From Rubrivivax sp. (lineage in GTDB: Bacteria > Pseudomonadota > Gammaproteobacteria > Burkholderiales > Burkholderiaceae_C), in the NCBI GenBank assembly GCA_026125665.1, contig JAHCKS010000045.1, positions 1 through 37,883 of the forward strand: a stretch of 37,883 nucleotides of DNA, in the 5' to 3' direction. A program made the translations under genes and the position numbers. Position 1 is the first letter of the stretch, and each line of letters opens with the position of its first letter. Below are positions 14,961 to 35,435 of this stretch, in pieces. Below the pieces are notes generated by a model. The model was not told where the DNA came from and did not search any database. It saw only the letters and a list, made by a program, of their open reading frames with translations.

Positions 14961-16364
14961 ATGGGCAAGGATGACGCGGCGACCATCGCCGAAACGCTCG
15001 CCGGCTTCGCCGCCGCGCTGCGGCCGGGCGACATTCCGCCGGCCGTCGCCGAACGGGCACGGCATCTGATCCTCGACGCGGTGGGCATCGCGCACGCGTC
15101 CACGCACTACGACTTCGCGCACCGCTCGTTGTCGGCCATGCAGGAGCTGTCGGCGGGCGGCGCCGACACGCCGGTGATCGGCCTGGCCGCGCGGCTCGCG
15201 CCGCGCGACGCGATGCTGATGAACGGCATCCTGGTGCACGGGCTCGACTACGACGACACGCACGCCGCGGGCGTGATCCACGCCACCGCCAGCACCTTCC
15301 CCTGCGCGCTCGGCACGGCTGCGCTCGCCGGTGCCGACGGCGAGGCGCTGCTCACGGCCTATGTCGCCGGCATGGAGGCCGGCGCGCGGTTGGCGTCGGT
15401 GGCCAAGGGCGGCTTCCACCAGGTCGGCTTCCATCCGACCGGATTGATCGGCGCGTTCGCCTGTGCGCTGGTCGCCGGGCGCCTGCTCGGGCTCAACGCG
15501 GCGCAGCTCGCCTGCGCACAGGGCATCGCGCTGTCGATGGCCTCGGGCAGCATGGAGTTCCTGCAGGACGGCGCATGGACCAAGCGCATGCACCCCGGCT
15601 GGGCGGCGGGCGCCGGGCTCACGGCCGCGACGATGGCGCGCCACGGCTTCGTCGGCCCCAAACAGGTCTACGAAGGCCGCTTCGGCCTGTTCAACAGCCA
15701 CCTCGGCGCGCTCGCACGCGACGGCGACCTGGCTCTTGCCACCGCCGGCCTGGGCGAGGTGTGGGAGCTGACCAAGGTCAACGTCAAGCCGCTGCCGGCC
15801 TGCCACTTCACCCACGCCTGTGCCGATGCGGCGGTGCTGCTGCGCGAACGGCACGGCCTGCGAGCCGAGCAGATCACGAGCGTGCGCGCGCTCGTGCCGG
15901 CCGAGGTGGTGAAGACCGTGTGCGAGCCGGTAGCCACGAAGAGGCGCCCGCAGAACAGCTACGACGCGCAGTTCAGCATCCCCTACATCGTCGCGACGGC
16001 GCTGATCCGCGGCCGCTTCGGCCTGGCCGAGCTCGACGAGGCGGCGTTGCGCGACGAGCGCACGCTCGCGCTCGCAGCCAAGGTCGAATACGAGGTGGAT
16101 GCGGATTCGCCGTTCCCGAAGTACTACTCGGGCGAGGTGGTCGTCACGCTGGCCGACGGGCGCGAGCTGCGCCACCGCGAGCATGTCAACCGCGGCGGCG
16201 AGGAGCGCCCGATCACGAATGCCGACGTGGTGCGCAAGTACGACGGGAACATGGCGCTTGTCGCCTCGCCGGCGCGGGCAGCGCGGGTGCGCGAGCGGGT
16301 GCTGGCGATCGGACGCGACGTTTCGGCGCTTGACGTGCAGGCCGGCCTTGCCGCGCGCGGCTGA
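14961..16364 (+). CDS. MmgE/PrpD family protein
   Basis: A 467-residue protein of the family that includes 2-methylcitrate dehydratase and cis-aconitate decarboxylase-type enzymes. Family marks are LILDAVGIAHAS near residue 40, LMNGILVHGLDYDDTH near 87, GFHPTGLIGAFACALVAGRLLGL, KRMHPGWAAGAGLTAATMA, and SYDAQFSIPYIVATALI. It opens a plus-strand unit with an acyl-CoA dehydrogenase 17 bp downstream and an MFS gene after it, and lies behind site A. Many PrpD homologues outside the methylcitrate cycle are uncharacterised; no prpB or prpC partner is here, so a role in propionate use is not supported. It may dehydrate or isomerise a hydroxy-acid intermediate. Confidence 0.9.
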   Translation: MGKDDAATIAETLAGFAAALRPGDIPPAVAERARHLILDAVGIAHASTHYDFAHRSLSAMQELSAGGADTPVIGLAARLAPRDAMLMNGILVHGLDYDDTHAAGVIHATASTFPCALGTAALAGADGEALLTAYVAGMEAGARLASVAKGGFHQVGFHPTGLIGAFACALVAGRLLGLNAAQLACAQGIALSMASGSMEFLQDGAWTKRMHPGWAAGAGLTAATMARHGFVGPKQVYEGRFGLFNSHLGALARDGDLALATAGLGEVWELTKVNVKPLPACHFTHACADAAVLLRERHGLRAEQITSVRALVPAEVVKTVCEPVATKRRPQNSYDAQFSIPYIVATALIRGRFGLAELDEAALRDERTLALAAKVEYEVDADSPFPKYYSGEVVVTLADGRELRHREHVNRGGEERPITNADVVRKYDGNMALVASPARAARVRERVLAIGRDVSALDVQAGLAARG

Positions 16365-16381
16365 CCCGGAAAGCTTCTTCG

Positions 16382-17533
16382 ATGAACCACGAGCTGCAAC
16401 AGGACGAAGCAATCCTCGACGCGATCGACCGCTTCCTGCGCGTCGAGGTCAGGCCGCACGTCAAGCGGCTCGAGCACGCGGACGAGTACCCCAGCGCGAT
16501 CGTCGAGCGCATGAAGGAGATGGGCCTGTTCGGCTGCATCATCCCGGTGGAGTACGGCGGGCTCGGCCTCTCGGCGGCGACCTACGCCGCGGTGGTGGCG
16601 CGCATCGCGTCGGTGTGGATGTCGCTGTCCGGCATCATCAACTCGCACCTCATCATGGCCGCCGCCGTGCTGCGCAGCGGCACCGAGGAACAGAAGCGCG
16701 CGTTCCTGCCGCGCTTCGCCACCGGCGAGCTGCGCGGCGGCATCGGCCTGACCGAGCCCGACGCCGGCACCGACCTGCAGGCGATCCGCACGCGCGCCGT
16801 GCGCGACGGCGAGCACTACGTCGTCAACGGCAGCAAGACCTGGATCACCAACAGCGGCCAGGGCAACTGCATCGCGCTGCTGGTGAAGACCGACCCGGCG
16901 GCCGAGCCGCGCCACCGCGGCATGAGCCTGTTCATCGCCGAGAAGGGGCCCGGCTTCGTCGTCTCGCGCAAGCTCGAGAAGCTCGGCTACCGCGGCATCG
17001 ACACCTGCGAGCTGCGCTTCGACGACTACCGCGTGCCGGCCTCGCGGCTCGTCGGCGGCGTCGAAGGCAGCGGGCTGCAGCAGGTGCTCGCGGGGCTGGA
17101 GCTGGGGCGCATCAACGTGGCCGCGCGCGGGCTCGGCGTGGCCACCGCGGCGCTGCACGACGCCGTGGCCTACGCGCAGCAGCGCAAGACCTTCGGCAAG
17201 CCGATCTGCGAGCACCAGGCCATCCAGCTCAAGCTTGGCGAGATGGCCACGCGCGTGGAAGCCGCGCGGTTGCTGGTGCAGTCGGCCGCGCGCGCATACG
17301 ACGGCGGCGAACGCTGCGACATGGAAGCCGGCATGGCGAAGTACTTCGCCACCGAGGCGGCGATGGACAACGCGCTCGAGTGCATGCGCATCCATGGCGC
17401 CTACGGCTACTCGCCCGAGTTCGACGTCGAGCGCTACTACCGCGACGCGCCGCTGCTGCTCATCGGCGAAGGCACCAACGAGATGCAGCGCATCATCATC
17501 GCGCGGCAGCTGGTGCAGCGCCACCCGGTGTGA
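16382..17533 (+). CDS. Acyl-CoA dehydrogenase
   Basis: A 383-residue FAD enzyme. The FAD/acyl motif IGLTEPDAGTDLQAI is at 121-135 and KTWITNSGQGNCIALLVKT at 152-170. The C-terminal domain has QRKTFGKPICEHQAIQ, the MRIHGAYGYSPEFDVER stretch, and IGEGTNEMQRIIIARQL with the probable catalytic base Glu363, the short/medium-chain-type position. This differs from the dehydrogenase at 665-1831, which uses the isovaleryl-type position, so the two are not redundant copies. A GGAA box precedes the ATG, and the stop overlaps the GTG of the MFS gene. Electrons go to ETF; no ETF genes are in the window. Confidence 0.93.
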   Translation: MNHELQQDEAILDAIDRFLRVEVRPHVKRLEHADEYPSAIVERMKEMGLFGCIIPVEYGGLGLSAATYAAVVARIASVWMSLSGIINSHLIMAAAVLRSGTEEQKRAFLPRFATGELRGGIGLTEPDAGTDLQAIRTRAVRDGEHYVVNGSKTWITNSGQGNCIALLVKTDPAAEPRHRGMSLFIAEKGPGFVVSRKLEKLGYRGIDTCELRFDDYRVPASRLVGGVEGSGLQQVLAGLELGRINVAARGLGVATAALHDAVAYAQQRKTFGKPICEHQAIQLKLGEMATRVEAARLLVQSAARAYDGGERCDMEAGMAKYFATEAAMDNALECMRIHGAYGYSPEFDVERYYRDAPLLLIGEGTNEMQRIIIARQLVQRHPV

Positions 17534-19102: not shown

Positions 19103-20257
19103 TCAGGCGGCCGCCACGACCGCACGGACGCTGCGCTGGTAGTGCGCCAGCGCCGGCTCGTTGCACCCATAGACGACGTCGCTGCGCGCGCCCGCGTTGA
19201 AGGCGAACTGCATGCCCTCGCAGGCCGGGAAATCCTCCTCGCACACCGTGCGGATCGTCAGGTCCATGTTGCGCGCCCAATGGCCGCGAGCGCTGTCGGT
19301 GTCGATCGGATCGGGCGCGTAGAAGTCGAGGTGCATCGCACACTCGCCGGGCCGGCCCGGCACCGGGAACACGCGCCAGGTCTCGACGTGATCGACCTGC
19401 ACGACGAACACGGTGTTCGGGAACAGCACGTAGACCAGCGTGTTGTGCGCGATCAGGTCCCATTGCTCCTCGGGCTGCGCGGCGAGCGCATCCAGGCTGC
19501 GGCGCGGCAGCACCTCGCGCAGATGCGGCCCGAAGGCGTCGAACAGGCACAGGTTGGCCTGGAACAGCGGCGCGACCGTCTGGCGGTGCAACACCGCCAG
19601 GTGGTAGGGCTCGAGGAAGGTGTCGATCGCCAGCTTCCAGTTCATCGCCCGGTTGATGAGCCGGGTCTCGTAGTGGTGGTAGCCGGCCAGTCCGAAGGAC
19701 GCGAGCTCGGCGTCGAGCTCGGCACCGAGATGCGCGGCGATGTCGATGGCGGGCGGCGCTTCGGGATCCGGCACCACCCAGATCAGCCCGTCGTGCTCGG
19801 CCGCCGGCAGCGGGCGCAGCCCGTGCGTGCACTTGTCAACGCCGGGAAAGCTGCGCTCGTCGGGTATGCCGCGCAGGCTGCCGTCGAGCCGGTAGGTCCA
19901 GCCGTGGTACGGGCACGCCAGCTTGCGGCGGTTGCCGGACCCGTGGGCGACACGCGCGCCGCGGTGCGCGCAAGCGTTGACGAAGGCGCCGATGCGCCCG
20001 TCCTCGCCGCGCACGATGAGGATCGGCAGCCCGCTCAGGTCGTGGGTCATGAAGTCGCCCGGTTGGCGCAGCTGGCAGGCGAGCCCCATCGCCAGTGGAT
20101 AACGCCGGAAGAGCACCGCCTGCTCGCGCGCCAGCCACTCGTGGCCGGCGTAGGCCGCGGCGGCGTTGCGCTCGACACTGGCGGCCGAGTCGGTGGTGCC
20201 GGCGCGCAGGTGCGCGAACACGCGCCGCATCAGCGCGATCTGTGTGTGCCTGTTCAT
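19103..20257 (-). CDS. Rieske non-heme iron oxygenase, large (alpha) subunit
   Basis: A 384-residue oxygenase. The Rieske cluster ligands are Cys96, His98, Cys115 and His118 (CAH-x16-CPYH). The catalytic iron ligands are probably His219 and His224 in EPYHLAVLH, with Asp342 in EEDFPACEGMQ. The electron-bridging residue before the first histidine is Glu216, not the Asp usual in ring-hydroxylating dioxygenases; Glu occurs in several Rieske monooxygenases. No ferredoxin, reductase or beta subunit gene is nearby, so electrons must come from elsewhere. It is divergent from an SDR gene 74 bp away. A GGGGAAG box precedes the ATG. The substrate may be an alicyclic or aromatic acid, or a quaternary amine-like compound; context favours the former. 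Confidence 0.9.
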   Translation of the reverse strand: MNRHTQIALMRRVFAHLRAGTTDSAASVERNAAAAYAGHEWLAREQAVLFRRYPLAMGLACQLRQPGDFMTHDLSGLPILIVRGEDGRIGAFVNACAHRGARVAHGSGNRRKLACPYHGWTYRLDGSLRGIPDERSFPGVDKCTHGLRPLPAAEHDGLIWVVPDPEAPPAIDIAAHLGAELDAELASFGLAGYHHYETRLINRAMNWKLAIDTFLEPYHLAVLHRQTVAPLFQANLCLFDAFGPHLREVLPRRSLDALAAQPEEQWDLIAHNTLVYVLFPNTVFVVQVDHVETWRVFPVPGRPGECAMHLDFYAPDPIDTDSARGHWARNMDLTIRTVCEEDFPACEGMQFAFNAGARSDVVYGCNEPALAHYQRSVRAVVAAA

Positions 20258-20331
20258 GGTCGGTTGCTTCCCCTATGCTGGCCGGATGGGCGTGTGTTCA
20301 TCGCCCGCGTGCAACGAACGAGGGCCACTTC
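20258..20331. promoter_or_regulatory. Divergent region between the Rieske oxygenase and SDR genes
   Basis: A 74-bp gap that should hold both starts. It contains AACGAACGA at 20313-20321, the same nonamer as in the BVMO/TetR operator at 23119-23127, but without the rest of that site. No clear -10/-35 pair is visible. A GAGGG at about 20320-20324 may serve the SDR start. Confidence 0.3.
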
Positions 20332-21087
20332 ATGCTCACGGACAAAGTCATCATCGTCACCGGCGCCGCGCGCGGCATCGGCCAGCGCTACGTGCTCGAC
20401 ATCCTGGCCGCCGGCGGCGCCGCCGTGGCAGCGGACCGCACCGCCTGCGACGAGACGCTCGCGCTGGCCGGCCCGCACCGCGAGCGCCTGCTCGCCCTGC
20501 CGCTCGACGTGGCCGACATGGCGTCGGCCAGCGCGACGGCGAAAGCGACGCTCGAACGGTTCGGCCGCATCGACGGCCTGGTGAACAACGCCGCGCTCTA
20601 CGCCACGCTGCACAAGGGCCGCTTCGACCAGCTCGACGAGGCCGAATGGGACGCCGCCATGACGGTGAACGTGAAGGGCATCTGGAACTGCTGCAGGGCG
20701 GTGCACGAGGCGATGCGCGCGGCCGGCGGCGGCAGCATCGTCAACATCACTTCGCTCGCCGCGCTCTACGGCATGCCCAACGCGCTGCACTACACCACCT
20801 CCAAGGCCGCCGTGATCGGCATGACGCGCGGCCTGGCGCGTGAACTGGGCCGCGCGTCGATCCGCGTGAACGCCGTCGCACCGTCTGCCGTCGCCACCGA
20901 AGGCACCAAGCAGTTCTTCGGCGCACGGCACGAGATCGCCCTGAAGGCCATCGCGGAAGGCCAGGCGATTCCGCGCAACCTGGACGCCGCCGATGTTTCC
21001 GGTGCCGTGTGCTGGCTGCTCTCCGACGCGGCGAAGTTCGTCACCGGCCAGACGATCGCGGTGGACGGCGGCACGGTCATGAACTGA
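20332..21087 (+). CDS. Short-chain dehydrogenase/reductase (SDR)
   Basis: A classical 251-residue SDR. The cofactor motif TGAARGIG is at 10-17, NNAA at 85-88, the catalytic Ser141 in NITSLAALYG, and Tyr154/Lys158 in YTTSK. The C-terminal FVTGQTIAVDGGTVMN is typical. Asp after the second strand (AADRTACD) suggests NAD(H). It would interconvert an alcohol and a ketone. Its stop region overlaps the end of the minus-strand BVMO gene by 11 bp (21077-21087). An SDR beside a Baeyer-Villiger enzyme suggests alcohol to ketone to ester or lactone, but they are on opposite strands, so co-regulation is unproven. Confidence 0.92.
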   Translation: MLTDKVIIVTGAARGIGQRYVLDILAAGGAAVAADRTACDETLALAGPHRERLLALPLDVADMASASATAKATLERFGRIDGLVNNAALYATLHKGRFDQLDEAEWDAAMTVNVKGIWNCCRAVHEAMRAAGGGSIVNITSLAALYGMPNALHYTTSKAAVIGMTRGLARELGRASIRVNAVAPSAVATEGTKQFFGARHEIALKAIAEGQAIPRNLDAADVSGAVCWLLSDAAKFVTGQTIAVDGGTVMN

Positions 21088-22999
21088 CCGCCTCGGCGAC
21101 GCGGCTGGTGTCGTAGTCGCCGAGGTCGGCATCGTGGGTCATCGCCCAGTAGTCCACCAGCCGCCACGGCAGCACCGTGAACACTCGGCCATGCCGGTTG
21201 CGGTAGTAGGTCGACATGCCCGGGTGCGACCAGATCAGGGTCTCGTGCTCCGCGTCGAAGCGGCGCAGGAAATCGTCGAGTACCTCCGGGCGCAAGTCGA
21301 TGGCGTCGACGCCGCGCTCGGCCATCTGCACCAGGCATGAGGTGATGTAGCGCGACTGGCACTCGGCCTGGAACGAGATGCTGCCGCCGTGGCCGAGTGA
21401 CGAGCCGGGTCCGACCATGCCGAAGAAGTTGGGAAAGCCGGGTACCGTCAGGCCGAGGTAGGCCGAGGGGTTGTCGTCGGCCCAGGCCTTGGCGAGCGTG
21501 CGTCCTCCGACGCCCGTGATGTTCAGCCGCGCGGCCATCTCGTGGAGTTTGAAGCCGGTGGCGTAGACGAGGATGTCAGCCTCGCGTCGCTTGCCGTCGG
21601 CCGTCTCCACGCCGTTGGAGGCGATGCGCCGGATCGGGTCGGTCACCAGTTCGACGCTCGGCTTCTTCAGCGTGCGGAACCAGCCGTTGTCCAGCAGGAT
21701 GCGCTTGCCGTACGGCGGATAGTCGGGCAGGCACTTGGGCACCAGGTCGGGCCGGTCGGCGAGTTCGGACAGGATGAAGTCCGTCATCTCGCGCCGATGC
21801 CGATCGTTGACCGCATTCACCGCGCGCTCGGGATGCGGCCAGTCGGGGTCCTTCTTCAAGGTCTTCAGCAGTCCGTCGCCGTAGCGCCAGAACATGTTGA
21901 AGCGGAACCAGGCCGCGTAATACGGCGCGTGGGCCAGCAGCCACTGCGCGCCGGGCTCGATGGGATCGGAGTAGCCCGGGATCGGCCGCGACCATTGCGG
22001 CGAGCGCTGGTACACGGCCACCGACTTCACCCGGTCGGCAATCTCGGGCAGCAACTGCATCACGGTGGCGCCGGTGCCGATCACCGCGACGCGCTTGCCG
22101 TCGACCTGCAGGCCCTCGGGCCACTTGGAAGAGTGGAAGCGCACGCCGGTGAAGTCGGCGGCGCCTTCGATGCGCGGTATCGACGGGTCGCTCAGCTGTC
22201 CGATGGCGCTGACGAAGAAGCGCGAGCGCACTTCCGACTCGCCTTCGGGTCCCTGCAGGCGCGACACCCACTGCCGGGCGTCGTCGTCCCAGCGGGCGCT
22301 CATCAGCCGCGTCGAGAAGCGGATGTGCCGGCGCAGGCCGACGGACTCGACCACCTGCAGCAGGTAGGTCAGGATGTCCTCGCGGCGCGAGAAGTAGCGC
22401 GGCCACAGGTAGCGCGGCCCGAACGACAGCGAATAGGCGTGGTTCGGCGTGTCGACGCCGCAGCCCGGATAGCGGTTCACGTTCCAGGTGCCGCCGATCT
22501 CGGTCGTCTTCTCGACGATGGTGAACGGCACGCCGAGCTCGGCCAGGCTGGCACCCAGCGCGATGCCGCAGACCCCCGCGCCGACGATCAGCACGTGGTC
22601 GTCGCGACCCGGCGGAAGGCTCTTGGCGTGGGCCCAGTGCACTCGGCGTGGCACCAGCGCCATCTCCTCGCGCGTGAGCCGCGCGTATTCGGCCGCGACG
22701 CTTTCGCCCAGGCACACGGACATCATGCGCTGCATCAGCTCGTCGCCCGGGTCGGGGATCGCCGGCGGCTCGCCGCGCCGCAGCACCTCGACCGCGGCTT
22801 CGCGAATGCGGGCCTGTGCCTCGGGCACCAGGCCGGCCGTCGGATCCGGAATGAGGTTCACGTCGCGCCGCGGGCGGAACGGCGGCTCGAGCCACGCCAG
22901 ATCGCCCGTCATGTGGACCAGCACCATGAGCAGCACGCGCAGGTCGGCGGCCTGCACGGCCTGTTCGATCTGGCGGGAGTCGAAGTCGGTTCGGGTCAT
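21077..22999 (-). CDS. Type I Baeyer-Villiger monooxygenase, HAPMO-like with N-terminal extension
   Basis: A 640-residue FAD/NADPH enzyme that inserts oxygen next to a ketone to make an ester or lactone. The FAD motif GAGVCG is at 140-145, the BVMO fingerprint FxGxxxHxxxWP is exact at 283-294 (FTGVRFHSSKWP), and the NADPH-site GTG is at 308-310. About 130 residues precede the first dinucleotide fold. That extension and the total length match 4-hydroxyacetophenone monooxygenase (640 residues as I recall), not cyclohexanone monooxygenase (about 540). It is divergent from tetR and has the best promoter in the window, overlapped by the proposed operator. Ketone substrate unknown: aryl, alicyclic and terpenoid ketones are all possible. 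Confidence 0.93.
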   Translation of the reverse strand: MTRTDFDSRQIEQAVQAADLRVLLMVLVHMTGDLAWLEPPFRPRRDVNLIPDPTAGLVPEAQARIREAAVEVLRRGEPPAIPDPGDELMQRMMSVCLGESVAAEYARLTREEMALVPRRVHWAHAKSLPPGRDDHVLIVGAGVCGIALGASLAELGVPFTIVEKTTEIGGTWNVNRYPGCGVDTPNHAYSLSFGPRYLWPRYFSRREDILTYLLQVVESVGLRRHIRFSTRLMSARWDDDARQWVSRLQGPEGESEVRSRFFVSAIGQLSDPSIPRIEGAADFTGVRFHSSKWPEGLQVDGKRVAVIGTGATVMQLLPEIADRVKSVAVYQRSPQWSRPIPGYSDPIEPGAQWLLAHAPYYAAWFRFNMFWRYGDGLLKTLKKDPDWPHPERAVNAVNDRHRREMTDFILSELADRPDLVPKCLPDYPPYGKRILLDNGWFRTLKKPSVELVTDPIRRIASNGVETADGKRREADILVYATGFKLHEMAARLNITGVGGRTLAKAWADDNPSAYLGLTVPGFPNFFGMVGPGSSLGHGGSISFQAECQSRYITSCLVQMAERGVDAIDLRPEVLDDFLRRFDAEHETLIWSHPGMSTYYRNRHGRVFTVLPWRLVDYWAMTHDADLGDYDTSRVAEAVSS

Positions 23000-23153: not shown

Positions 23154-23744
23154 ATGCCTGCCTTGAAGAGCGCACGCGCGCCACGTTCCGACAGCCGCCT
23201 GAGCGATCTGCTCGACGCCGCTGCGGCGCTGTTCGCGCAGCGCGGCTACGCGGCGACGTCGATGCGCGACATCGCGCTGGCGGTCAAGATGCTTCCCGGC
23301 TCGGTGTACTACCACTTCGCTTCGAAGGAGGAGCTGCTGGTGGCGGTCTACGAGGCCGGCGTCGGCGAGCTCGAGGCGGCGGTGCGCGCTGGCGTGGCGC
23401 CGGGCGACGCGCCTTGGCAGCAGCTCGAGTCGGCCTGCCGCGCCCACCTCGAGACCGTGCTGCGCAACAGCGACTACGCGCAGGTGCTCATCCGCGTACA
23501 CCCCGAGGACGTGCCCGACGCGGCCGAGCGGCTGCGCGGCCTGCGCGCCGGCTACGAGGACATCTTCCGCACGCTCGTCGCCGCCCTGCCCTTACCCGCC
23601 GGCACCGACCGCCGCACCCTGCGGCTGATGCTTCTCGGCGCGCTCAACTGGGCACGCGTCTGGTTCGATCCCGAGGGCCGCCAATCGCCGCGCGCGCTGG
23701 CCGCCAAGTTCATCTCTTTCCTGAAGGAAGCGCAGCATGCGTGA
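23154..23744 (+). CDS. TetR/AcrR-family transcriptional regulator
   Basis: A 196-residue regulator. The N-terminal helix-turn-helix domain is clear: LLDAAAALFAQRGYAATSMR then DIALAVKMLPGSVYYHFASK at about 20-58. The C-terminal ligand domain ends with LGALNWARVWFDPEGRQSPR and FISFLKEA, a layout seen in TetR proteins that sense acyl-CoAs or lipophilic acids. It starts the plus-strand mutase operon; its last 8 bp overlap the start of the B12-binding subunit gene. The divergent BVMO promoter with an operator-like site lies directly upstream. I infer that it represses its own operon and BVMO, and that sites A, B and C belong to its regulon. The effector may be a CoA thioester of the pathway. Confidence 0.92.
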   Translation: MPALKSARAPRSDSRLSDLLDAAAALFAQRGYAATSMRDIALAVKMLPGSVYYHFASKEELLVAVYEAGVGELEAAVRAGVAPGDAPWQQLESACRAHLETVLRNSDYAQVLIRVHPEDVPDAAERLRGLRAGYEDIFRTLVAALPLPAGTDRRTLRLMLLGALNWARVWFDPEGRQSPRALAAKFISFLKEAQHA

Positions 23745-24159
23745 ACGCCCCCCGAAGGTCATCGTCACCAAGATCGGCTTCGACGGCCACGATCGCGGCA
23801 GCCGCGTCATCGCGGCCACGCTGCGCGACGCCGGCATGGAAGTGATCTACACGCCGCCGTGGCAGGAGATCCCCACCGTCGTCAAGCTCGCCACCGAGGA
23901 GGACGCCGACGTGATCGGTCTGTCCTCGCTGGCCACCGACCACCTCATCGTGCCGCGCCTGATGGATGCGCTGCGCGCCGCCGGCCTCGGCGACGTGAAG
24001 GTGATCGTCGGCGGCATCGTGCCGGCCAAGGACGAGCAGATGCTGCTCGAAGCCGGTGTCTCGCGGGTGTTCCATCCGGGCACCGCGCTCGACGACGTGG
24101 TCACGTCCGTGCGCGAACTCGCCCGAAGCCGCCACGCCCGCCTGGGAGCTGCTGCATGA
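23737..24159 (+). CDS. B12-binding small subunit of an acyl-CoA mutase
   Basis: A 140-residue stand-alone cobalamin domain. The base-off/His-on motif DxHxxG is Asp16-x-His18-x-x-Gly21 in GFDGHDRG, so His18 should ligate cobalt from below. GLSSLATDH and [10 protein letters not shown] supply the other cofactor-tail contacts. As in isobutyryl- and 2-hydroxyisobutyryl-CoA mutases, the B12 domain is a separate protein, not fused to the TIM barrel as in methylmalonyl-CoA mutase. Its start overlaps tetR by 8 bp and its stop overlaps the large-subunit start (ATGA), so the two subunits are translationally coupled in the order small then large. Confidence 0.93.
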
Positions 24160-25838
24160 ACAAGCCCCTTCCCCACCTGGCCGACGCCGACCTGGCCAGC
24201 GCACGCCAGCGCTGGGAGCGCGAGTTCGCGGCCGGCGCGCCCGGCGCCACGACGCCGCGCAACCGCTCGGGCATCGGCGTGAAGCCGCTGTACACGCCGC
24301 ACGACTGGTCGGGCGCGGCCTACAGCGCGGACCTCGGTTTCCCGGGCGAGTACCCGTACACGCGCGGCATCTACCCCACGATGTACCGCGGGCGCAGCTG
24401 GTCGCAGCGCCAGCTCATCGGCCTGGGCGTGCCCGAGGACTACAACGCGCGCGTCAAGGAGTTGCTCGCCCTCGGCACCTCGGCGCTGTCGCTGATCCCG
24501 TGCAACTCGGTGTTCCGCGGCTACGACGCCGACGAGGTTCCGGTCGAGCTGCTCGGCACCTGCGGCACCGTCATCAACCACGTCGGCGACATGGAGCGCG
24601 CGCTCGACGGCGTGCCCATCGGCGAGCTGTCGACGGCCATGAACGACCCCTCGCCGTTCACGCTGCTGGCCTTCGAGCTGGCGGTGGCGCGGCGGCGCGG
24701 CGTGCCGTGGACCAAGATCACCGGCACCTCGAACCAGAGCGACTGCATCTCGCACTTCGTCGCCAACCACATGTTCTTCCGCATCGCGCTGCAGGGTGCG
24801 CGGCGCATCGCGGTGGACCACATCGCGTTCTGCAACGAGCAGGTGCCGGGCTGGAACCCGCTGTCCATCGTCGGCCAGCACATGCAGCAGGCCGGCGCCA
24901 CGCCGGCCGAGGCGATGGCCTTCACGCTGGCCTCGGCGGTGCAGTATGCCGAGGACTGCATCGCCCGCGGCATGGACCCCGACCGCTTCCTGCCGCGCTT
25001 CACCTTCTTCTTCGACATCTCGGTCAGCTTCTTCGAGGAGGTGGCCAAGTTCCGCGCCGGGCGGCGCATTTGGGCCAAGCTCTGCCGCGAACGCCTGGGC
25101 GCGCGCGACCCGCGCTCCTGGCGCTTCAAGTTCCACGGCCAGACCTCGGGCGTGGACCTGACGCGCCAGCAGCCGCTGAACAACATCGCGCGCGTCACAA
25201 CGCAGGCGATGGCCGGCATCTTCGGCGGCCTGCAGTCGCTGCACACCGACTCGTACGACGAGGTGTTCTCCACGCCCACCGCCGAGGCCGCCCGCATCGC
25301 CGTGGCGACGCAGAACATCCTGCGTGATGAAGCGCATCTCACCGACGTGATCGACCCGCTCGGCGGCTCGTACTACATCGAGTCGCTCACCGACGCGATG
25401 GAGCAGAAGATCGAGGCCATCATCGCCCTTGTCGACCAGGCCGGCGGCATGTACAAGGCGGTCGAGCAGGGCCTGGTGCAGAAGATGATCGGCGAGTCGG
25501 CCCTCGCGTTCCAGAAGCGCGTGGATGCCGGCGAAGAGGTCGTCGTCGGCGTCAACAAGTACGCGATCGAGGAAGACCCGTCCACCTACCCGGCGCTCGA
25601 CTACCCGGACCGTGCACGCATCGAGGCGCAGGTGCAGAGCCTGCGCGCTTTCAAGGCGCAGCGCTCGGCGTCCAAGGTCGACAAGGCGCTCGCCGCGCTC
25701 GCCGGCACGGCCCAGTCGAAGGACGGCAACGTGTTCGCGCAGGTGGTCGCCTCGGCCGAGGCCGGCGCCACGCACGGCGAGATCTGCGGTACGTTGCGGC
25801 GCGAGCTCGGCTTCGGCCACGTGCTCGCGATGGTCTGA
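24156..25838 (+). CDS. Large subunit of a B12-dependent acyl-CoA mutase, substrate class unassigned
   Basis: A 560-residue TIM-barrel subunit of the methylmalonyl-CoA mutase family. Recognisable blocks are [13 protein letters not shown] at 70-82, GYDAD at 122-126, [16 protein letters not shown] at 233-248, [26 protein letters not shown] and [12 protein letters not shown]. Aligned by eye with methylmalonyl-CoA mutase, Tyr89 becomes Leu87, Ala116 becomes Ile114, the carboxylate-binding Arg207 becomes Ala203 and Tyr243 becomes Gln241; His244 is kept as His242. The usual AFDLPTHRG is replaced by IPCNSVFRG. From memory, the isobutyryl enzyme has Phe/Gln at the Tyr89/Arg207 sites, and the hydroxyisobutyryl enzyme Ile/Asp at the Tyr89/Ala116 sites, so this fits neither. 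Loss of Arg207 argues against methylmalonyl-CoA. It follows the small subunit and precedes the MeaB fusion. Confidence 0.93.
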
Positions 25839-27076
25839 TGAACGCGCCGCCGGGTTTGGTCGAGTCGTTGTTGGCCGGCGACCGCCGCAGCCTGGCGCGC
25901 GCGATCACCGCGCTCGAGAACGACAGCGACAACGCGGCCGCCGTGCGCGCCTTGCTGGCGGGCCATGTGGGCCAGGCCCATGTCATCGGCGTCACCGGGC
26001 CGCCGGGCGGCGGCAAGTCGACACTGGTGTCTGCCCTGATCGGCCAGCTGCGCGCGCGCGGCCGTACGGTGGCGGTGGTGGCGGTTGACCCGTCGAGTCC
26101 GATCACCGGCGGCGCGGTGCTCGGCGACCGCATCCGCATGGCGGCGCACCAGGCCGACGCAGGCGTCTTCATCCGCTCGCTGGCGTCGCGCGGCCATCTC
26201 GGCGGGCTGGCCCGCTCGGCGGCGGACGTGGTCGATGCGCTCGACGCCGCGAACTTCCACACCATCGTCGTCGAGACCGTCGGTGCCGGGCAGTCGGAAG
26301 TCGAGATCACTCGCATCGCCGACACGCGGCTGGTGGTCTGCCCGCCGGGCCTCGGCGACGACGTGCAGGCGATCAAGGCCGGCGTGCTCGAGATCGCCGA
26401 CGCCTTCGTCGTGAGCAAGGCCGACCTGCCCGATGCGCAGCGCACCGAGCGAGAGCTGCTGGCGATGCTGGCGCTGCGCCGCACGGCCGGTGCGCGGCCG
26501 CCCGTGCTGCGCGCCGTGGCCACCTCCGGTGAGGGCCTGGCCGAGCTGTGCGACTGGATCGAGCAGCGCGAGGTGCGCGGCACGCGCTGCGCCGCGTCGG
26601 CCGCCGACCGGGCCGCCCGCCAGATGATCCGCCTTGCGATGGCGGCCGACGGCTACGGCCGCCACATGGGGCTGGAGGTGGTGACCGGGGGAGCCGGCTC
26701 TGCCGCCGTGCGCATGCGCGTCGGGCCGCAGCACCTGAACTTCAACGGCCGCTGCCACGGCGGGGCGATCTTCTCGCTGGCCGACATGGCGCTCGGCCTG
26801 GCCTGCAACTCGCACGGGACCATCGCCGCGCTGGTCGACGGCAACATCAGCATTTCCGCCGGCGCGAGCGAAGGCGACTGGCTCGTGGCGCAGGCCAGCG
26901 AAGTCTCGCGCACGCGCAAGCTGGCCGTCTACCGTGTCGACGTGCGCCGCGGCGCTGACGGCGAGCACGTGGCCTGCCTGTCGGGAACGGTCTACCTCAC
27001 CGGCCGGCCGGTGCTCGGCGAGCCGTCCGCCGGCGCGGCCTCCTCCGCAGCGCAGCATGCGCCGGCGGCTCGCTGA
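25838..27076 (+). CDS. MeaB-type G3E GTPase fused to a PaaI-like hotdog thioesterase
   Basis: One 412-residue frame with two domains. Residues 1 to about 250 form a MeaB/ArgK-type metallochaperone that loads and protects B12 mutases. Visible motifs are Walker A GPPGGGKST at 54-62, VDPSSPITGGAVLGDRIRM at 83-101, ETVGAGQSE at 146-154 and the base-recognition SKAD at 193-196 (Ser in place of the usual Asn). Residues about 260-412 are a PaaI-type thioesterase: FNGRCHGGAIFSLADMALGL at 302-321 with HGG at 307-309 and probable catalytic Asp316, then ACNSHG. The C-terminal dimerisation arm of normal MeaB appears to be absent, replaced by the hotdog domain. TGATG overlap with the mutase gene. No internal stop or restart suggests a join of two genes. 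Confidence 0.9.
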   Translation: MNAPPGLVESLLAGDRRSLARAITALENDSDNAAAVRALLAGHVGQAHVIGVTGPPGGGKSTLVSALIGQLRARGRTVAVVAVDPSSPITGGAVLGDRIRMAAHQADAGVFIRSLASRGHLGGLARSAADVVDALDAANFHTIVVETVGAGQSEVEITRIADTRLVVCPPGLGDDVQAIKAGVLEIADAFVVSKADLPDAQRTERELLAMLALRRTAGARPPVLRAVATSGEGLAELCDWIEQREVRGTRCAASAADRAARQMIRLAMAADGYGRHMGLEVVTGGAGSAAVRMRVGPQHLNFNGRCHGGAIFSLADMALGLACNSHGTIAALVDGNISISAGASEGDWLVAQASEVSRTRKLAVYRVDVRRGADGEHVACLSGTVYLTGRPVLGEPSAGAASSAAQHAPAAR

Positions 27077-28592: not shown

Positions 28593-29387
28593 ATGGATCT
28601 GGAACTGAAGAACAAGTCGGTGATCGTCACCGGCGGTGGCTCGAACATCGGCCGCGCGATCGTGCTGGCCTTCGCCGGCGAAGGCGCCCACATCACCGTG
28701 GGCGACATCGACACCCAGCAGGCCGAGAAGACGGCCGAGTTCGCCACCAAGCTCGGCGCTGCGTCGGTGCAGGTCGTGAAGACGGACGTCACCAACCTCG
28801 AGCAGGTGCAGGCGATGTTCAAGGCGGCGAGTGACAAGCACGGCCGCGTGGATGTGCTGGTGAACAACGTCGGCTGGGACAACCTGATGTTCTTCACCCA
28901 GACCACGCCGGACTTCTGGCGCAAGGTGATCGACATCAACTACGTCGGCGTGCTCAACTGCACCAAGACCGGGCTGGATCTGATGGTCAAGCAGAACGGC
29001 GGCGCCATCGTCTCGATCAGCTCCGACGCCAGCCGCCAGGGCGAGCCGCGCGAAGCCGTGTACGGTGGCGTGAAGGCCGCCGTCAACAGCTTCATGAAGA
29101 CGATCGCCAAGGAAAACGGCCGCTACGGCATCCGCTGCAACGTCGTCTGCCCCGGCGTCACCATTCCCTCCACCTCCGATGAAGTCGGCGGCAACAGCAT
29201 GTGGACCAACGCCGACAGCATGTTCACGCCCGAGCAGATCGAGAAGGCCGCCAAGGCCATGCCGCTGCGCAAGGTGGGGCGGCCGCAGGACGTGGCCAAT
29301 GCGGTGGTGTTTCTCGCTTCGAGCAAAGCCGGTCACGTGACCGGCCAGGTGCTCAGCGTCTCCGGCGGCTACAGCATGATTGGTTGA
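28593..29387 (+). CDS. badH: BadH-like 2-hydroxycyclohexanecarboxyl-CoA dehydrogenase (SDR)
   Basis: A 264-residue SDR. TGGGSNIG is at 13-20, NNVGWD at 91-96, catalytic Ser143/144 in SISSDAS, Tyr157 and Lys161 in YGGVK. The WD after NNVG, SSDASRQGEPREAVYGGVKA and the ending TGQVLSVSGGYSMIG resemble BadH of Rhodopseudomonas palustris as I recall it. BadH oxidises 2-hydroxycyclohexanecarboxyl-CoA to the 2-keto compound with NAD. The next gene, 12 bp away, encodes a close BadI homologue, which strengthens the call. Asp38 after the second strand fits NAD preference. It is the first gene behind site B. A related ring size or a substituted ring as true substrate cannot be excluded. Confidence 0.82.
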   Translation: MDLELKNKSVIVTGGGSNIGRAIVLAFAGEGAHITVGDIDTQQAEKTAEFATKLGAASVQVVKTDVTNLEQVQAMFKAASDKHGRVDVLVNNVGWDNLMFFTQTTPDFWRKVIDINYVGVLNCTKTGLDLMVKQNGGAIVSISSDASRQGEPREAVYGGVKAAVNSFMKTIAKENGRYGIRCNVVCPGVTIPSTSDEVGGNSMWTNADSMFTPEQIEKAAKAMPLRKVGRPQDVANAVVFLASSKAGHVTGQVLSVSGGYSMIG

Positions 29388-29399
29388 AGGGGCGCACGG

Positions 29400-30185
29400 A
29401 TGGACTACACCGACATCGTCTACGAAGAGCGCGACCGGATCGCGACCATCGCGATCAACCGGCCATCGGTGATGAATGCCTTCCGCGGGCAGACGATCGA
29501 AGAGATGCTGCACGCCATGATGAAGGCAGGCTGGGACAAGAAGATCGCCGCCATCGTGATCACCGGCACCGGCGACCGCGCCTTCTGCACCGGCGGCGAC
29601 CAGTCGGCGCACTCCGGCCAGTACGACGGCCGCGGCACCGCCGGCCTGCCCATCGAGGAGCTGCACAGCGCCATCCGCGACGTGCCCAAGCCGGTGATCG
29701 CGCGCGTGCAGGGCTATGCGATCGGCGGCGGCAACGTCATCGCCACGCTGTGCGACATGACCATCGCCTCCGACAAGGCGGTGTTCGGCCAGGTCGGCCC
29801 CAAGGTCGGCTCGGTCGATCCGGGCTGGGGCACGGCCTACCTGGCCGCCGTCGTCGGCGAGAAGAAGGCGCGCGAGATCTGGTATATGTGCCGCCGCTAC
29901 GGCGCGCAAGAAGCGCTGGCGATGGGGCTGTGCAACATCGTCGTGCCGCACGACCAGCTCGACGCCGAGGTCGCCAAGTGGGGCCGCGAGCTGGTCGAGA
30001 AGAGCCCGACCGCTATCGCGATCGCCAAGCGGTCGTTCAACGCGTCCACCGAGCACATCCGCGGCATCGGCAGCCTCGGCATGCAGGCGCTCAGCCTGTA
30101 CTACGAGACCGACGAGTCGAAGGAAGGCGTGCGCGCCTTCCTCGAGAAGCGCAAGCCCGACTTCCGCAGCCGCTTCAAGGCGTAG
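29400..30185 (+). CDS. badI: BadI-like 2-ketocyclohexanecarboxyl-CoA hydrolase
   Basis: A 261-residue crotonase of the MenB/BadI branch. The blocks INRPSVMNAFRGQTIEEM and GDRAFCTGGDQSAHSGQYDG then RGTAGLPIEELHSAIRDVPK, VIARVQGYAIGGGNVIATLC and FGQVGPKVGSVDPGWGTAYL are nearly those of BadI as I recall it, far closer than to ordinary hydratases. BadI hydrolyses the C-C bond of 2-ketocyclohexanecarboxyl-CoA, a reverse-Dieckmann ring opening that yields pimeloyl-CoA for beta-oxidation. Length matches BadI (about 260). It follows badH by 12 bp in the same unit. Together they give the strongest pathway assignment in this window: cleavage of an alicyclic ring as CoA ester. Confidence 0.88.
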   Translation: MDYTDIVYEERDRIATIAINRPSVMNAFRGQTIEEMLHAMMKAGWDKKIAAIVITGTGDRAFCTGGDQSAHSGQYDGRGTAGLPIEELHSAIRDVPKPVIARVQGYAIGGGNVIATLCDMTIASDKAVFGQVGPKVGSVDPGWGTAYLAAVVGEKKAREIWYMCRRYGAQEALAMGLCNIVVPHDQLDAEVAKWGRELVEKSPTAIAIAKRSFNASTEHIRGIGSLGMQALSLYYETDESKEGVRAFLEKRKPDFRSRFKA

Positions 30186-31498: not shown

Positions 31499-32749
31499 AT
31501 GACCCGAAGCGCACCGCGATCGAACTCCCGCGCGCTGCTCACCGCGGCCTTGCTGCTCACTGCGGCCTTGCTGCTGGCCGCCCGCGCCGCCGGCGCGGCC
31601 GATCCGGCCACGATCTCCATCCCGGTCGTCACGCCGATGAGCGGCGCCACATCGGTGATCGGCCAGGATTCCGTGAAAGCCCTCGAGATCGCGATGCGGC
31701 ACATCGCCGAGGACGGCGGCGTGCTCGGGCGCAAGCTCGAACTGAAGATGGTCGATACGCAGGGCAAGCCCGACGTCATGCGCCGCGAACTCGAGCGCCT
31801 GGCGCGGCTGGAGAACGCGCCGCTGGTGCTCGGCTGCGAGGTCAGCGCCGCCACCGCCGCCGGCGCGCAGTTCGCCGAGCAATTCAAGGTGCCCTTCCTC
31901 AACTCGGCCGCCGTCGCCGCCGACATCCTGCAGCGCGGCTACGGCTGGTACTTCTCCGACCAGATCACCGGCGACGATGAGGCGCGCGCGGTCACCTCGT
32001 TCGTCGAATACCTGGCGTCGCAGAACGCCGGCAAGCCGCTCAAGCTCGGCTTCCTGTTCGAGGACAGCCCGCGCGGTGCAGGCACCATCGAGGCGTCGCG
32101 CAAGCTGCTCAAGGACAAGGGCATCGCGCCGGTCGTCGAAGTCTCGTACAACCGCGCCGAGCGCAATCTGCTGCCTCAGGTGAAGAAGGTCGAGCAGGCG
32201 GGCGCGGACGTCGTCGTCTGGGCCGGCTACACCGAGGACGTCGTCGCCGGCCTGAAGGCGATGCAGCAGATCAGCTTCACGCCGTACGTGGTCGGCATCG
32301 GCGGCGGCCCCGGCGATCCGCGCATCCCGACGCTGGTCGATCCGGCCTTCATCGAGAAGCTGCGCCTGAGCACGATCGACTACTTCAATCCTGACCTGCC
32401 GCGTGCCAGGCGGTTCGTCGAGGCCTATCAAAAGCAGTTCGGCACGCTGCCGAGCAGCTACGCGTCGCTGTGCTACCGCGGCGCCTACACCGTGTACGCG
32501 GCACTCAAGGCGGCGCTCGCGACCAAGGGCGGCAGCCTCGACCGCGAATCGTTGCGCGGTGCCCTGCGGGCGTTGAAGATTCCCGGCGAGGCCACGATCA
32601 CGCCGTTCGCATCGATCGAATTCGACGCCCAGGGGCGCAACGTCGGCGCGCGTTCGCTCGTCGCGCAGTGGCAGGACGGCGGCACGCGCAAGGTCACGGT
32701 CTGGCCAAAGGACGTCGCCGCGCGCGCGCCGCTGCCTGCGCAGCGCTGA
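31499..32749 (+). CDS. Branched-chain-amino-acid-type ABC transporter substrate-binding protein (LivK-like)
   Basis: A 416-residue periplasmic receptor (Peripla_BP_6 fold). The signal peptide has an unusual repeated hydrophobic core (LLTAALLLTAALLLAA) and likely cleavage near AGAADP. The mature part starts ATISIPVVTPMSGATSVIGQDSVK; later blocks include LVLGCEVSAATAAGAQFAEQF, KLGFLFEDSPRGAGTIEASRK and SYASLCYRGAYTVYAALKAA. An AGGAG box precedes the ATG. It is not a copy of the receptor at 3909-5039; the two share only family-level motifs, so the two Liv systems probably have different ligands. It leads a livH, livM-G, livF set. Confidence 0.92.
   Translation: MTRSAPRSNSRALLTAALLLTAALLLAARAAGAADPATISIPVVTPMSGATSVIGQDSVKALEIAMRHIAEDGGVLGRKLELKMVDTQGKPDVMRRELERLARLENAPLVLGCEVSAATAAGAQFAEQFKVPFLNSAAVAADILQRGYGWYFSDQITGDDEARAVTSFVEYLASQNAGKPLKLGFLFEDSPRGAGTIEASRKLLKDKGIAPVVEVSYNRAERNLLPQVKKVEQAGADVVVWAGYTEDVVAGLKAMQQISFTPYVVGIGGGPGDPRIPTLVDPAFIEKLRLSTIDYFNPDLPRARRFVEAYQKQFGTLPSSYASLCYRGAYTVYAALKAALATKGGSLDRESLRGALRALKIPGEATITPFASIEFDAQGRNVGARSLVAQWQDGGTRKVTVWPKDVAARAPLPAQR
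31534..31569 (+). repeat. Tandem 18-bp duplication in the signal-peptide coding region
   Basis: Two adjacent 18-bp units (31534-31551 and 31552-31569) differ at one base and keep frame, each encoding LLTAAL. The duplication lengthens the hydrophobic core of the LivK-like signal peptide by six residues. It looks like replication slippage. Confidence 0.85.
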
Positions 32750-32775: not shown

Positions 32776-33654
32776 ATGACGCTCGACCTCGCGCTGCAAG
32801 CCGCGGTCTCGGGCCTGCTGATGGGCGGCATCTACGCGCTCGTTGCGCTCGCGCTCGCCCTCGTCTTCGGCGTCATGCGGGTGCTCAACTTCGCCCACGG
32901 CGACCTGCTGCTGGTCGCGATGTACGGCACGGTCGTGCTCAACCAGGCGCTCGGCCTGCACCCCTATGCATCGACGCTGCTGCTCGTGCCGCTGATGGGC
33001 GTGCTGGGATGGGGGCTCTTCGCAGCGCTCATCCGGCCGCTGCTCGGCTCGAGTGCGCTGATGCAGGCGCAGCTCACGATCGGCGTGTCGTTCATGATCC
33101 AGAGCGCCGCGCTGATGATCTTCGGCGCCGATCTGATGAACGTGCGCACTTCGTTCGAGAGCAGCACGTTGCCGCTGGGTCGCGGCATCGTCGTCGGCGT
33201 GCCGCTGCTCGTGGCGTTCGCCGTGTCGGTGCTGGCGTGTGCCGCGGTCGCGTGGTTCCTCGCGCGCACGGAGACCGGCGTCCGCATCCGCGCCACCGCG
33301 CAGGACCCCGTGATGGCGCGGCTGTGCGGCGTGGCCGTGCCGAGGCTGCAGAAGATGGTGTTCGCGGCCAGCATCGCGCTGCTCGCCCTGGCTGCGGGCA
33401 GCCTGATGACCTTCTTCCACGTCACGCCCACCACCGGCGTGCAGTTCAGCATCCTGTCGCTGCTCATCGTGGTGCTCGGTGGCCTCGGCGACCTCAAGGG
33501 CGCGTTCGTCGGCGGATTGATGATCGGCCTGGCCGAGTCGCTGGCAGGCGCGGCGTTCGACAGCGCACTGGCGCCGGCGGTGATCTACATCCTGTTCGCG
33601 CTGACGCTGCTGTTCAGACCGCGGGGTCTGTTCGGGCGCGGGAGCATCGCGTGA
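32776..33654 (+). CDS. livH: ABC transporter permease, LivH type
   Basis: A 292-residue inner-membrane permease. LALQAAVSGLLMGGIYALVA and FGVMRVLNFAHGDLLLVAMY are diagnostic of LivH, as are the central LARTETGVRIRATAQDPVMA and VVLGGLGDLKGAFVGGLMIG blocks. The end FALTLLFRPRGLFGRG is typical. About eight hydrophobic segments. The ATG at 32776 matches the family start, 26 bp after livK; a TTG upstream is less likely. Its stop overlaps the GTG of the fused livM-livG gene. Confidence 0.92.
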   Translation: MTLDLALQAAVSGLLMGGIYALVALALALVFGVMRVLNFAHGDLLLVAMYGTVVLNQALGLHPYASTLLLVPLMGVLGWGLFAALIRPLLGSSALMQAQLTIGVSFMIQSAALMIFGADLMNVRTSFESSTLPLGRGIVVGVPLLVAFAVSVLACAAVAWFLARTETGVRIRATAQDPVMARLCGVAVPRLQKMVFAASIALLALAAGSLMTFFHVTPTTGVQFSILSLLIVVLGGLGDLKGAFVGGLMIGLAESLAGAAFDSALAPAVIYILFALTLLFRPRGLFGRGSIA

Positions 33655-35435
33655 CGCCACCGGGGCGCCGCGGCCGCCGCACGGAGGCGGCCCTCGCGCT
33701 GCTGCTGATCTGGTGCGTGGTCGGCGCCGCACTGCTGGGCGGCAATCCCTACTGGGTCAGCGTCGCCACCACGGTGCTGATGTGGGTGCACCTGTGCGTG
33801 GCCTGGAATGCGGTCGGCGGCATGGTCGGCCAGATCTCGTTCGGCAACGCCGCGTTCTTCGGCATCGGGGCCTACACCTCGACCTTCCTCGCGGCCAGGT
33901 ACGGCGTCAACCCATGGCTCGGCATGCTCGCCGGCGGCGCGCTGGCCGCCGCCGCGGGCTGGTGCGTCGGCTACCTGCCGTTCCGCTGGCGGCTGAGCCA
34001 TCTGGTGTTCGCACTGCTGACCATGGCGGCGGGATTCGTGCTGCAGTTCAGCGTCAACGGCATGCGTGCGCTCGGCGGCACGAACGGTCTGTACGTCAAC
34101 GCCCCGTCCTCGCTGTCCAACCTGCGCTTCGACCACCCGGCCGGCTATCTGTTGACCATCGCAGTCCTGGCGAGCGCGACCCTGCTCGTCGTTGCGCTGC
34201 TGTACCAAGGCCGCAGAGGCTACTTCTGGCGCGCCGTGCGCGACAACGAGGATGCTGCGGCCGCCGCCGGCGTCAGCTTGTTCCGGGTCAAGCAGGAAGC
34301 GCTCGCCGTAAGCGCATTCGCGACCGCCGTCGCCGGCACCTTCTATGCACAGCAGATCGGCTACATCGATCCGCATTCGGTGCTGGGCGTGGACGTGGCG
34401 ATCCAGATCCTGCTGTTCGCCGTGGTCGGCGGTGCCGGCACCCAGCTCGGGCCGGTCGTCGGCCCGCTCCTGCTGGTGCCGCTGGGCGAAGCGCTGCGCC
34501 TCGCGCTGGGCGGCGGCGCGGCGGCGGAACTGCACCATTTCGCCTACGGAGCAGCGCTCGTCGCGGTCATTCTGCTGTGGCCCGGCGGCGTGGTCGGCGG
34601 GGTGCGCAGGATGCTGCAGTCGCGTCGCCCCCCGAGGCCCGCCGACGCGCAGGGCTCCGAACCTGCGTCGGCCGTCGTCGGGCCGCCGCGTGCCCCGACG
34701 CCCATCGACAGCGACACACTGGTCGAGGTGGCGGGCATCGGCAAGCGCTTCGGCGGACTGCAGGCGCTGCACGACGTGTCGTTCACCGTTCGCCGCGGCG
34801 AGATCCTGGGGCTCATCGGACCCAACGGCGCCGGCAAGACGACGATGTTCTCGATCCTCGGGGGCTTCCAGCGGCCGAGCGCAGGCGAAGTGCGCTATGG
34901 GGGCGAACGCATCGACGGCTTGGAACCGCACGAGATCTGCCGGCGCGGCATCGCCCGCACCTTCCAGATCACGCAGTCGTTCCCGACCCTGACCGTGTTC
35001 GATACGGTGCTCACCGCGGCGCTGGTGCGTCACCGCATGGCGGCAGCCCTCGGGGTGGCGCAGGCCGTGCTCGTGCGCACCGGGCTGTGGGAAAGGCGCG
35101 CCGCCCTCTGCGCGGAGGTGACGCTGGCCGAACAGCGCCGACTCGAGGTCGCGCGCGCACTGGCCACCGGGCCGACGGTGCTGCTGCTCGACGAGTCGAT
35201 GGCCGGCCTCACGCCGCGCGAGACCGACGCCGCGCTGCGGCTGCTGCGCAGCCTGCGCGACGAAGGGCTGACCATCGTGCTGATCGAGCACGTGATGCGG
35301 GCGGTGATGAACATCTGCGACCGGCTCGTCGTGCTCGACGCCGGCCGCCTGCTCGCCAGCGGCACGCCGTCGGCCGTGGCGTCCGATCCGCAGGTGATCC
35401 GCGCCTACCTCGGCGCGGCTGCGCCGGGAAGATAG
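33651..35435 (+). CDS. Fused LivM permease - LivG ATPase
   Basis: A single 594-residue frame starting at GTG inside the livH stop. Residues 1 to about 320 are LivM: AWNAVGGMVGQISFGNAAFF at 51-70, the RAVRDNEDAAAAAGVS coupling loop, and LLWPGGVVGG at 308-317. A Pro/Ala-rich linker spans about 321-355. Residues 356-594 are LivG: Walker A GPNGAGKTT at 390-398, Q-loop RTFQI at 436-440, Walker B VLLLDES at 510-516 and IEHVM at 545-549. The signature reads TLAEQRRLE (491-499), not LSYGQQRRLE, and only about 50 residues separate Q-loop and signature where about 70-80 are usual. LivM-LivG fusions are known, but the ATPase part is atypical and might depend on the intact LivF partner. Confidence 0.92.
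   Translation: MTPPGRRGRRTEAALALLLIWCVVGAALLGGNPYWVSVATTVLMWVHLCVAWNAVGGMVGQISFGNAAFFGIGAYTSTFLAARYGVNPWLGMLAGGALAAAAGWCVGYLPFRWRLSHLVFALLTMAAGFVLQFSVNGMRALGGTNGLYVNAPSSLSNLRFDHPAGYLLTIAVLASATLLVVALLYQGRRGYFWRAVRDNEDAAAAAGVSLFRVKQEALAVSAFATAVAGTFYAQQIGYIDPHSVLGVDVAIQILLFAVVGGAGTQLGPVVGPLLLVPLGEALRLALGGGAAAELHHFAYGAALVAVILLWPGGVVGGVRRMLQSRRPPRPADAQGSEPASAVVGPPRAPTPIDSDTLVEVAGIGKRFGGLQALHDVSFTVRRGEILGLIGPNGAGKTTMFSILGGFQRPSAGEVRYGGERIDGLEPHEICRRGIARTFQITQSFPTLTVFDTVLTAALVRHRMAAALGVAQAVLVRTGLWERRAALCAEVTLAEQRRLEVARALATGPTVLLLDESMAGLTPRETDAALRLLRSLRDEGLTIVLIEHVMRAVMNICDRLVVLDAGRLLASGTPSAVASDPQVIRAYLGAAAPGR

Follow-up and report, generated by a model that had tools for sequence, protein, structure and literature searches.

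Acids with a quaternary alpha carbon, such as pivalate and many naphthenic acids, resist beta-oxidation. A native two-subunit pivalyl-CoA mutase (PCM) from Xanthobacter autotrophicus Py2 was reportedly characterised by Kitanishi et al. in 2015, which together with a 2012 study by Cracan and Banerjee forms background to a pivalyl-type reading of the mutase described here. Our literature search found no publication on a native pivalyl-CoA mutase, and we presume, by elimination, that Xaut_5043/Xaut_5044 on plasmid pXAUT01 of strain Py2 is the PCM of 2015: the same plasmid encodes Xaut_5021, ~21 kb from Xaut_5043, a homologue of 2-hydroxyisobutyryl-CoA mutase (HCM) that is HCM-like by its residues, so that Xaut_5043/Xaut_5044 would be the PCM of this strain. 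The fused isobutyryl-type mutase IcmF also interconverts pivalyl-CoA and isovaleryl-CoA, as stated in two articles (PMC10481361, PMC9974510).

Here, we analysed a stretch of 37,883 nucleotides from Rubrivivax sp. (hereafter, the window), whose mutase locus shares with the presumed PCM a 65% identical large subunit, a separate B12 subunit, an upstream TetR gene, adjacent MeaB and thioesterase genes, and the residues at three substrate columns (numbered as in MutB of P. shermanii), namely Leu at Tyr89, Asn at Arg207, and Gln at Tyr243. The two loci differ in that the window MeaB is fused to the thioesterase and that BadH- and BadI-like genes stand beside the window operon, whereas the Xanthobacter locus has ligase and Liv genes directly downstream. 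HcmA (PDB 4r3u) and its homologues in Methylibium and Xanthobacter (Xaut_5021) have the same two-subunit layout with MeaB in the operon and are 37–38% identical to the window mutase, but HCM rows read Ile, Asp, Gln, Tyr, and His at columns 89, 116, 207, 243, and 244, where the window mutase has Leu87, Ile114, Asn204, Gln241, and His242. IcmF (30–32% identical) likewise combines the mutase fold with a MeaB-type chaperone, but as a single fused chain, and reads Phe, Ala, Gln, Tyr, and His at these columns. Methylmalonyl-CoA mutase (MCM) shares the B12 chemistry and the catalytic His244, whereas the window mutase is without Tyr89, Arg207, and Tyr243. The MCM and ethylmalonyl-CoA mutase (ECM) rows have Tyr, Ala, Tyr, and His at columns 89, 116, 243, and 244, with Phe at column 89 in the MutB row, which was taken from the Y89F mutant entry 5req; the one ECM row (L125), labelled ECM from its length and residues, has Tyr89 and Arg207 where the window has Leu87 and Asn204.

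The mutase locus and its host genome

The host of the window is a soil- and water-type bacterium, represented by a 6.28-Mb draft genome with a completeness of 88.6%, and a Burkholderiales metagenome-assembled genome (MAG) from groundwater was 97.75% identical to the window over 21.7 kb (locus L018). The mutase ORF had been placed exactly in an initial annotation of this DNA, and the separate B12 subunit with DxHxxG noted there is encoded by the ORF before it (Table 1); Pfam MM_CoA_mutase spans residues 37–552 of the 560-aa mutase with 565.6 bits. The genes are tightly packed, the mutase start overlapping the end of the B12-subunit gene by 4 bases and its end overlapping the start of the MeaB-thioesterase gene by one base. 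Three further mutase genes were found in the same genome: one on contig C263 is 68% identical to the window mutase and stands in the same operon, one on contig C18 is a long, single-chain, MCM-like gene that we took as MCM, and one on contig C199 is IcmF-like.

Table 1 Features of the mutase locus, with positions in the window
Feature	Position	Strand	Evidence
TetR-family regulator, opens the conserved operon	23154..23744	+	Pfam TetR_N 67.3 bits
B12-binding small subunit, 140 aa, DGHDRG = DxHxxG	23737..24159	+	Pfam B12-binding 90.1 bits; TIGR00640 133.6 bits, above cut-off
B12-dependent acyl-CoA mutase large subunit, pivalyl-CoA-mutase-like clade	24156..25838	+	Pfam, alignment, tree
MeaB G-protein chaperone and PaaI-type hotdog thioesterase, one frame	25838..27076	+	MeaB 269.3 bits, 4HBT 43 bits
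SDR dehydrogenase, top NCBIfam match BadH	28593..29387	+	211.4 bits, under the 431.2 cut-off
BadI-type 2-ketocyclohexanecarboxyl-CoA hydrolase	29400..30185	+	TIGR03210 469.1 bits vs cut-off 467.6
ABC transporter substrate-binding protein, branched-chain type	31499..32749	+	Pfam Peripla_BP_6 182.6 bits
ABC permease and ATPase, one frame, branched-chain type	33009..35435	+	Pfam BPD_transp_2 and ABC_tran; LivG model 205.7 bits, under the 362 cut-off

Upstream of the operon (19103–22999) lie genes for a Rieske oxygenase (−), an SDR (+), and a flavin monooxygenase of 640 aa (−); at a threshold of 50% identity, the Rieske oxygenase has homologues in 6 of 87 clade loci and the flavin monooxygenase in 2 of 87. 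Further upstream (14961–17533), MmgE/PrpD-family and acyl-CoA dehydrogenase genes were detected, and their clusters at 50% identity or more recur near the operon in a distant clade member, Pseudosulfitobacter (L017), as called by a simple ORF caller that misplaces some genes in GC-rich flanks.

Family placement and substrate-column residues

Relatives of the window mutase form a sharply separated group of 61–100% identity, while the other mutases that the plasmid search listed reached ~43% at best. In that search (tblastn against 72,556 plasmid records), 426 records matched, at least six of them at 61–77% identity and the rest, among the 40 of 426 listed, at ~43% or less; a genome scan found 279 contig stretches encoding a relative, of which the best 80 were examined. 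In a 38-row tree, all 23 clade rows formed a single group (support 100/100) on a long stem, apart from MCM, HCM, IcmF, and another unnamed clade, and the clade including Xaut_5043 was recovered in 200 of the 200 bootstrap trees counted. This tree, which has long MCM and clade branches that were flagged by a warning, was built without the rows of ECM, Sphingobium_Y, and Streptomyces canus; in a quick 55-row tree with 37 clade rows, the single ECM row (28% identical to the window mutase) fell outside the clade on a long branch. The clade is real and well bounded, and its residues at the substrate columns are an unusual combination.

Xaut_5043 (64.6% identical to the window mutase) sits inside the clade, and the window's branch lies outside the inner Xaut_5043 branch in the 38-row tree. 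The initial annotation had described a substrate pocket that matches no characterised class, which is probably wrong given that a single 100/100 clade unites the window mutase with a protein of the strain reported as the source of PCM; the pivalyl enzyme had been named there for comparison, but without residues. At seven columns of the putative pocket, the window reads LINVFNQ and Xaut_5043 reads LLCGFNQ: Leu, Asn, Gln, and Phe are shared, whereas Ile replaces Leu, Asn replaces Cys, and Val replaces Gly. The initial annotation had named a position inside a characterised clade, with identical pocket residues, as what would speak against a new class; this was found for the clade and for four of the seven columns but not for the other three, with the PCM identity of Xaut_5043 presumed. 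The roseobacter rows carry the window's seven-column set except for Tyr in place of Phe. The clade most likely represents the pivalyl-CoA mutase family, which would make the window mutase an added member of a known family and not an unmatched class.

Most residue assignments made earlier by eye stood up in the MAFFT alignment, including Leu87, Ile114, and Gln241 at the Tyr89, Ala116, and Tyr243 columns, the radical-chemistry histidine (His242 at His244), the strand IPCNSVFRG aligned with AFDLPTHRG of P. shermanii MutB, and the reference residues Tyr of MCM, Phe of the isobutyryl type (IcmF rows), and Ile and Asp of HCM. The pairing of Ala203 with Arg207, however, was off by one, as it came from a gapless alignment that overlooked a one-residue insertion (GTSNQSD vs GTI-QND). 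Asn204 occupies the Arg207 column in both MAFFT and profile-profile (hhalign) alignments, and the residue following Ala/Cys pairs with Arg207 in all 1105 global pairwise alignments (85 of the 91 clade rows against 13 references). Since Asn204 and not Ala203 stands at this column, the pocket is better described as uncharged than as plainly apolar; "apolar" was an overstatement with Asn and Gln present. An uncharged pocket points to a non-carboxylated, branched acyl-CoA, and the original suggestion of a branched substrate is probably right.

The 91 clade rows have Leu at column 89 (91), Ile (81) or Leu (10) at column 116, Asn (90) or Leu (1) at column 207, Gln at column 243 (91), and His at column 244 (91). 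The Leu/Asn/Gln set occurs in none of the MCM, ECM, HCM, and IcmF reference rows. Loci that repeat the same genes, and one Sphingobium copy out of two, were dropped from these 91 rows, which are still not independent because the near copy L018 and other close relatives were retained. Moreover, loci were picked in the genome scan by two peptide motifs, VGQHMQQ and W[ST]QRQLIG, which include Gln241 and Leu87, so that the constancy of these two residues in the 80 loci is partly by construction; Asn204 was not selected in this way, and the same Leu and Gln occur in rows from pattern-free protein searches (six plasmid records, the host's own paralog, G147, G123, and G090).

The residues and the tree bear on two alternatives. 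Some clade relatives are annotated as methylmalonyl-CoA mutase, but an ordinary methylmalonyl- or ethylmalonyl-CoA mutase seems extremely improbable: Tyr89 and Arg207 are missing from 91 of 91 clade rows, an MCM-like single-chain gene is already present on contig C18, and the MCM equivalog model gave 443.4 bits where its cut-off is 876, although a large subunit by itself could scarcely score that high. A different natural substrate among branched or hydroxylated short-chain acyl-CoAs, similar to isobutyryl-, 2-methylbutyryl-, or 2-hydroxyisobutyryl-CoA, appears quite unlikely as well. HCM is the solved structure closest by sequence (377.9 bits), and Asn204 and Gln241 could hold a polar group, but the Ile/Asp of HCM and the Phe/Gln of IcmF are missing and the tree places the window mutase outside both groups, the isobutyryl references being three fused IcmF rows without two-subunit ICM. 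Residues and tree agree with the initial annotation that the enzyme is not an MCM, IcmF, or HCM, and the residues agree that it is not an ECM.

Operon conservation and the predicted reaction

The conserved operon consists of TetR, B12 subunit, mutase, and a dedicated MeaB that is often fused to a hotdog thioesterase. Among 87 clade loci (window excluded; 14 of these stretches are shorter than 9 kb), 82 have the B12 subunit no further than 300 bases from the mutase, 73 have MeaB at a distance of up to 1 kb, and 70 have a TetR homologue at up to 1.2 kb. The MeaB-thioesterase fusion was found in 38 of 76 MeaB-bearing loci when all 88 loci including the window were searched; in some other clade loci, MeaB and thioesterase are separate neighbours.

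Genes that would handle an external acid recur beside this operon. In 17 of the 87 loci, a CoA ligase sharing 50% identity or more with the Diaphorobacter one lies no more than 5 kb from the mutase, and Liv-type transporter genes lie near the mutase in 14–16 of the 87; the records concerned are beta-, alpha-, and gammaproteobacterial, along with a number of MAGs that carry other labels. Such linkage would be predicted if an acid were taken up from outside and activated, and the arrangement looks like uptake, activation, and rearrangement of such an acid.

We infer from the family, clade, column residues, and operon described above that the window enzyme probably belongs to the pivalyl-CoA mutase type of adenosylcobalamin-dependent acyl-CoA mutases with two subunits, acting on an alpha-quaternary acyl-CoA. 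Following the established chemistry of adenosylcobalamin-dependent acyl-CoA mutases, homolysis of the Co-C bond would yield a 5'-deoxyadenosyl radical, which would abstract hydrogen from a methyl group on the fully substituted alpha carbon; the CoA-thioester carbonyl would migrate to the resulting CH2 (1,2-shift), and the tertiary radical would be quenched by hydrogen return. Pivalyl-CoA (2,2-dimethylpropanoyl-CoA) would in this way be converted to isovaleryl-CoA, a product that would be open to ordinary beta-branched acyl-CoA enzymes. The exchange of the Tyr/Phe ring for Leu87 and of Arg/Gln for Asn204 would make space for a third alpha substituent and take away the charge that binds a carboxylate. 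MeaB would serve in cofactor loading and repair, and we would guess that the fused thioesterase may release CoA from stalled esters. The host could probably consume otherwise undegradable branched acids through a B12 mutase that moves the acid group off the fully branched carbon, and the conserved operon would point to candidate genes that take up and activate the acid, load the cofactor, and rescue CoA. With 279 stretches encoding a relative (best 80 examined), this chemistry may be far more widespread than the one enzyme reportedly characterised.

Carboxylase genes near some clade mutases offer a hint about the product. MCC-type and geranyl-CoA carboxylases both act on beta-methyl acyl-CoAs. 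On near-identical loci of Sulfitobacter and Pseudosulfitobacter plasmids, the operon is followed by a thioesterase, a second TetR, and then carboxylase, crotonase, and acyl-CoA dehydrogenase genes. The carboxylase beta subunit scored 586–612 bits with five chains (two MCC, an AccD1 acetyl-/propionyl-CoA carboxylase, one propionyl-CoA carboxylase, and one carboxyl transferase), 525–527 bits with three more MCC chains, 428 bits with geranyl-CoA carboxylase, and at most 261 bits with other PCC-type chains, and the biotin carboxylase had nearly equal scores with MCC and PCC. The best chain for the acyl-CoA dehydrogenase was a general acyl-CoA dehydrogenase (310 bits, vs 226–231 bits for isovaleryl chains), and the crotonase was equally unspecific for an isovalerate route. 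In one Ramlibacter, the mutase neighbour on the opposite strand is geranyl-CoA-carboxylase-like (570 bits vs 450 bits for the next MCC). MCC- and geranyl-type neighbours would suit beta-methyl-branched products such as isovaleryl-CoA. Nevertheless, such carboxylases are common: the host genome has seven copies of at least 40% identity (best 64%), and carboxylase linkage was found in 3 of the 87 loci (two of them near-copies) against ~1.5 expected from these own-genome copies, an excess not clearly beyond chance. We therefore read the linkage as a hint at most and rejected it as general support for, or proof of, the product.

The BadH/BadI-linked branch and other mutases

A ring substrate is hinted at by the genes downstream of the window operon. 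The window's branch might act on an alicyclic alpha-quaternary acyl-CoA, e.g., 1-methylcyclohexanecarboxyl-CoA; dehydrogenation and hydration of the product would then allow its oxidation by the BadH-like SDR and the opening of its ring by BadI. The seven-column differences from Xaut_5043 together with the BadI linkage make a cyclic substrate possible. BadH and BadI homologues (at least 90% identical) lie 1.6–6.8 kb from the mutase in all eight loci whose mutase shares 86% identity or more with that of the window (L018–L024 and L048), with varying genes between the mutase and the pair. Further, the window BadI is above its curated cut-off (Table 1) and is a second copy, the stronger one (480.4 bits) being on another contig of the host genome (G000 contig C196:45577-46353).

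Several observations weigh against this alternative. A homologue of the BadH-like SDR at 50% identity or more was present in 8 of 87 loci, and the BadH/BadI linkage was absent from all 79 others, 52 of which reach 7 kb past the mutase (as do 60 of the 87 overall); the linkage is thus limited to one close group and can be explained by common descent. The window BadH match is under its cut-off, no AliB-type dehydrogenase above its cut-off was detected in the 88.6%-complete host genome, and neither BadH nor BadI was found in the 15 kb examined for the paralogous mutase of the same genome. Our literature search found no publication on a mutase for cyclic quaternary acids. Overall, a cyclic substrate that is passed on to BadH and BadI is possible but rather unlikely for the window's branch, with the pivalyl-type reading preferred. 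If the cyclic route were true, naphthenic-type or terpenoid acids resistant to beta-oxidation would be entered by B12-radical chemistry that feeds a dedicated second BadH/BadI pair, and the BadI-linked branch would be informative about a shift of the family towards cyclic acids.

Two other kinds of mutase with unusual columns were observed outside the clade. On plasmid pMSHV of Sphingobium herbicidovorans (L113:3968-5689), a mutase ~34% identical to that of the window has Val89, Glu116, Val207, Ala243, and Gln in place of the catalytic His244, and it is accompanied by B12-subunit and MeaB genes with a cytochrome P450 and a ferredoxin nearby. Another mutase clade, in Paraburkholderia and Diaphorobacter (L112:2899-4524 and L012:26686-28311), keeps Tyr89 and Arg207 and has Ala for Tyr243, in the gene order regulator (KdgR or IclR type), enoyl-CoA hydratase, mutase, B12 subunit, and CoA transferase; the Diaphorobacter gene lies ~11 kb from a pivalyl-type mutase.
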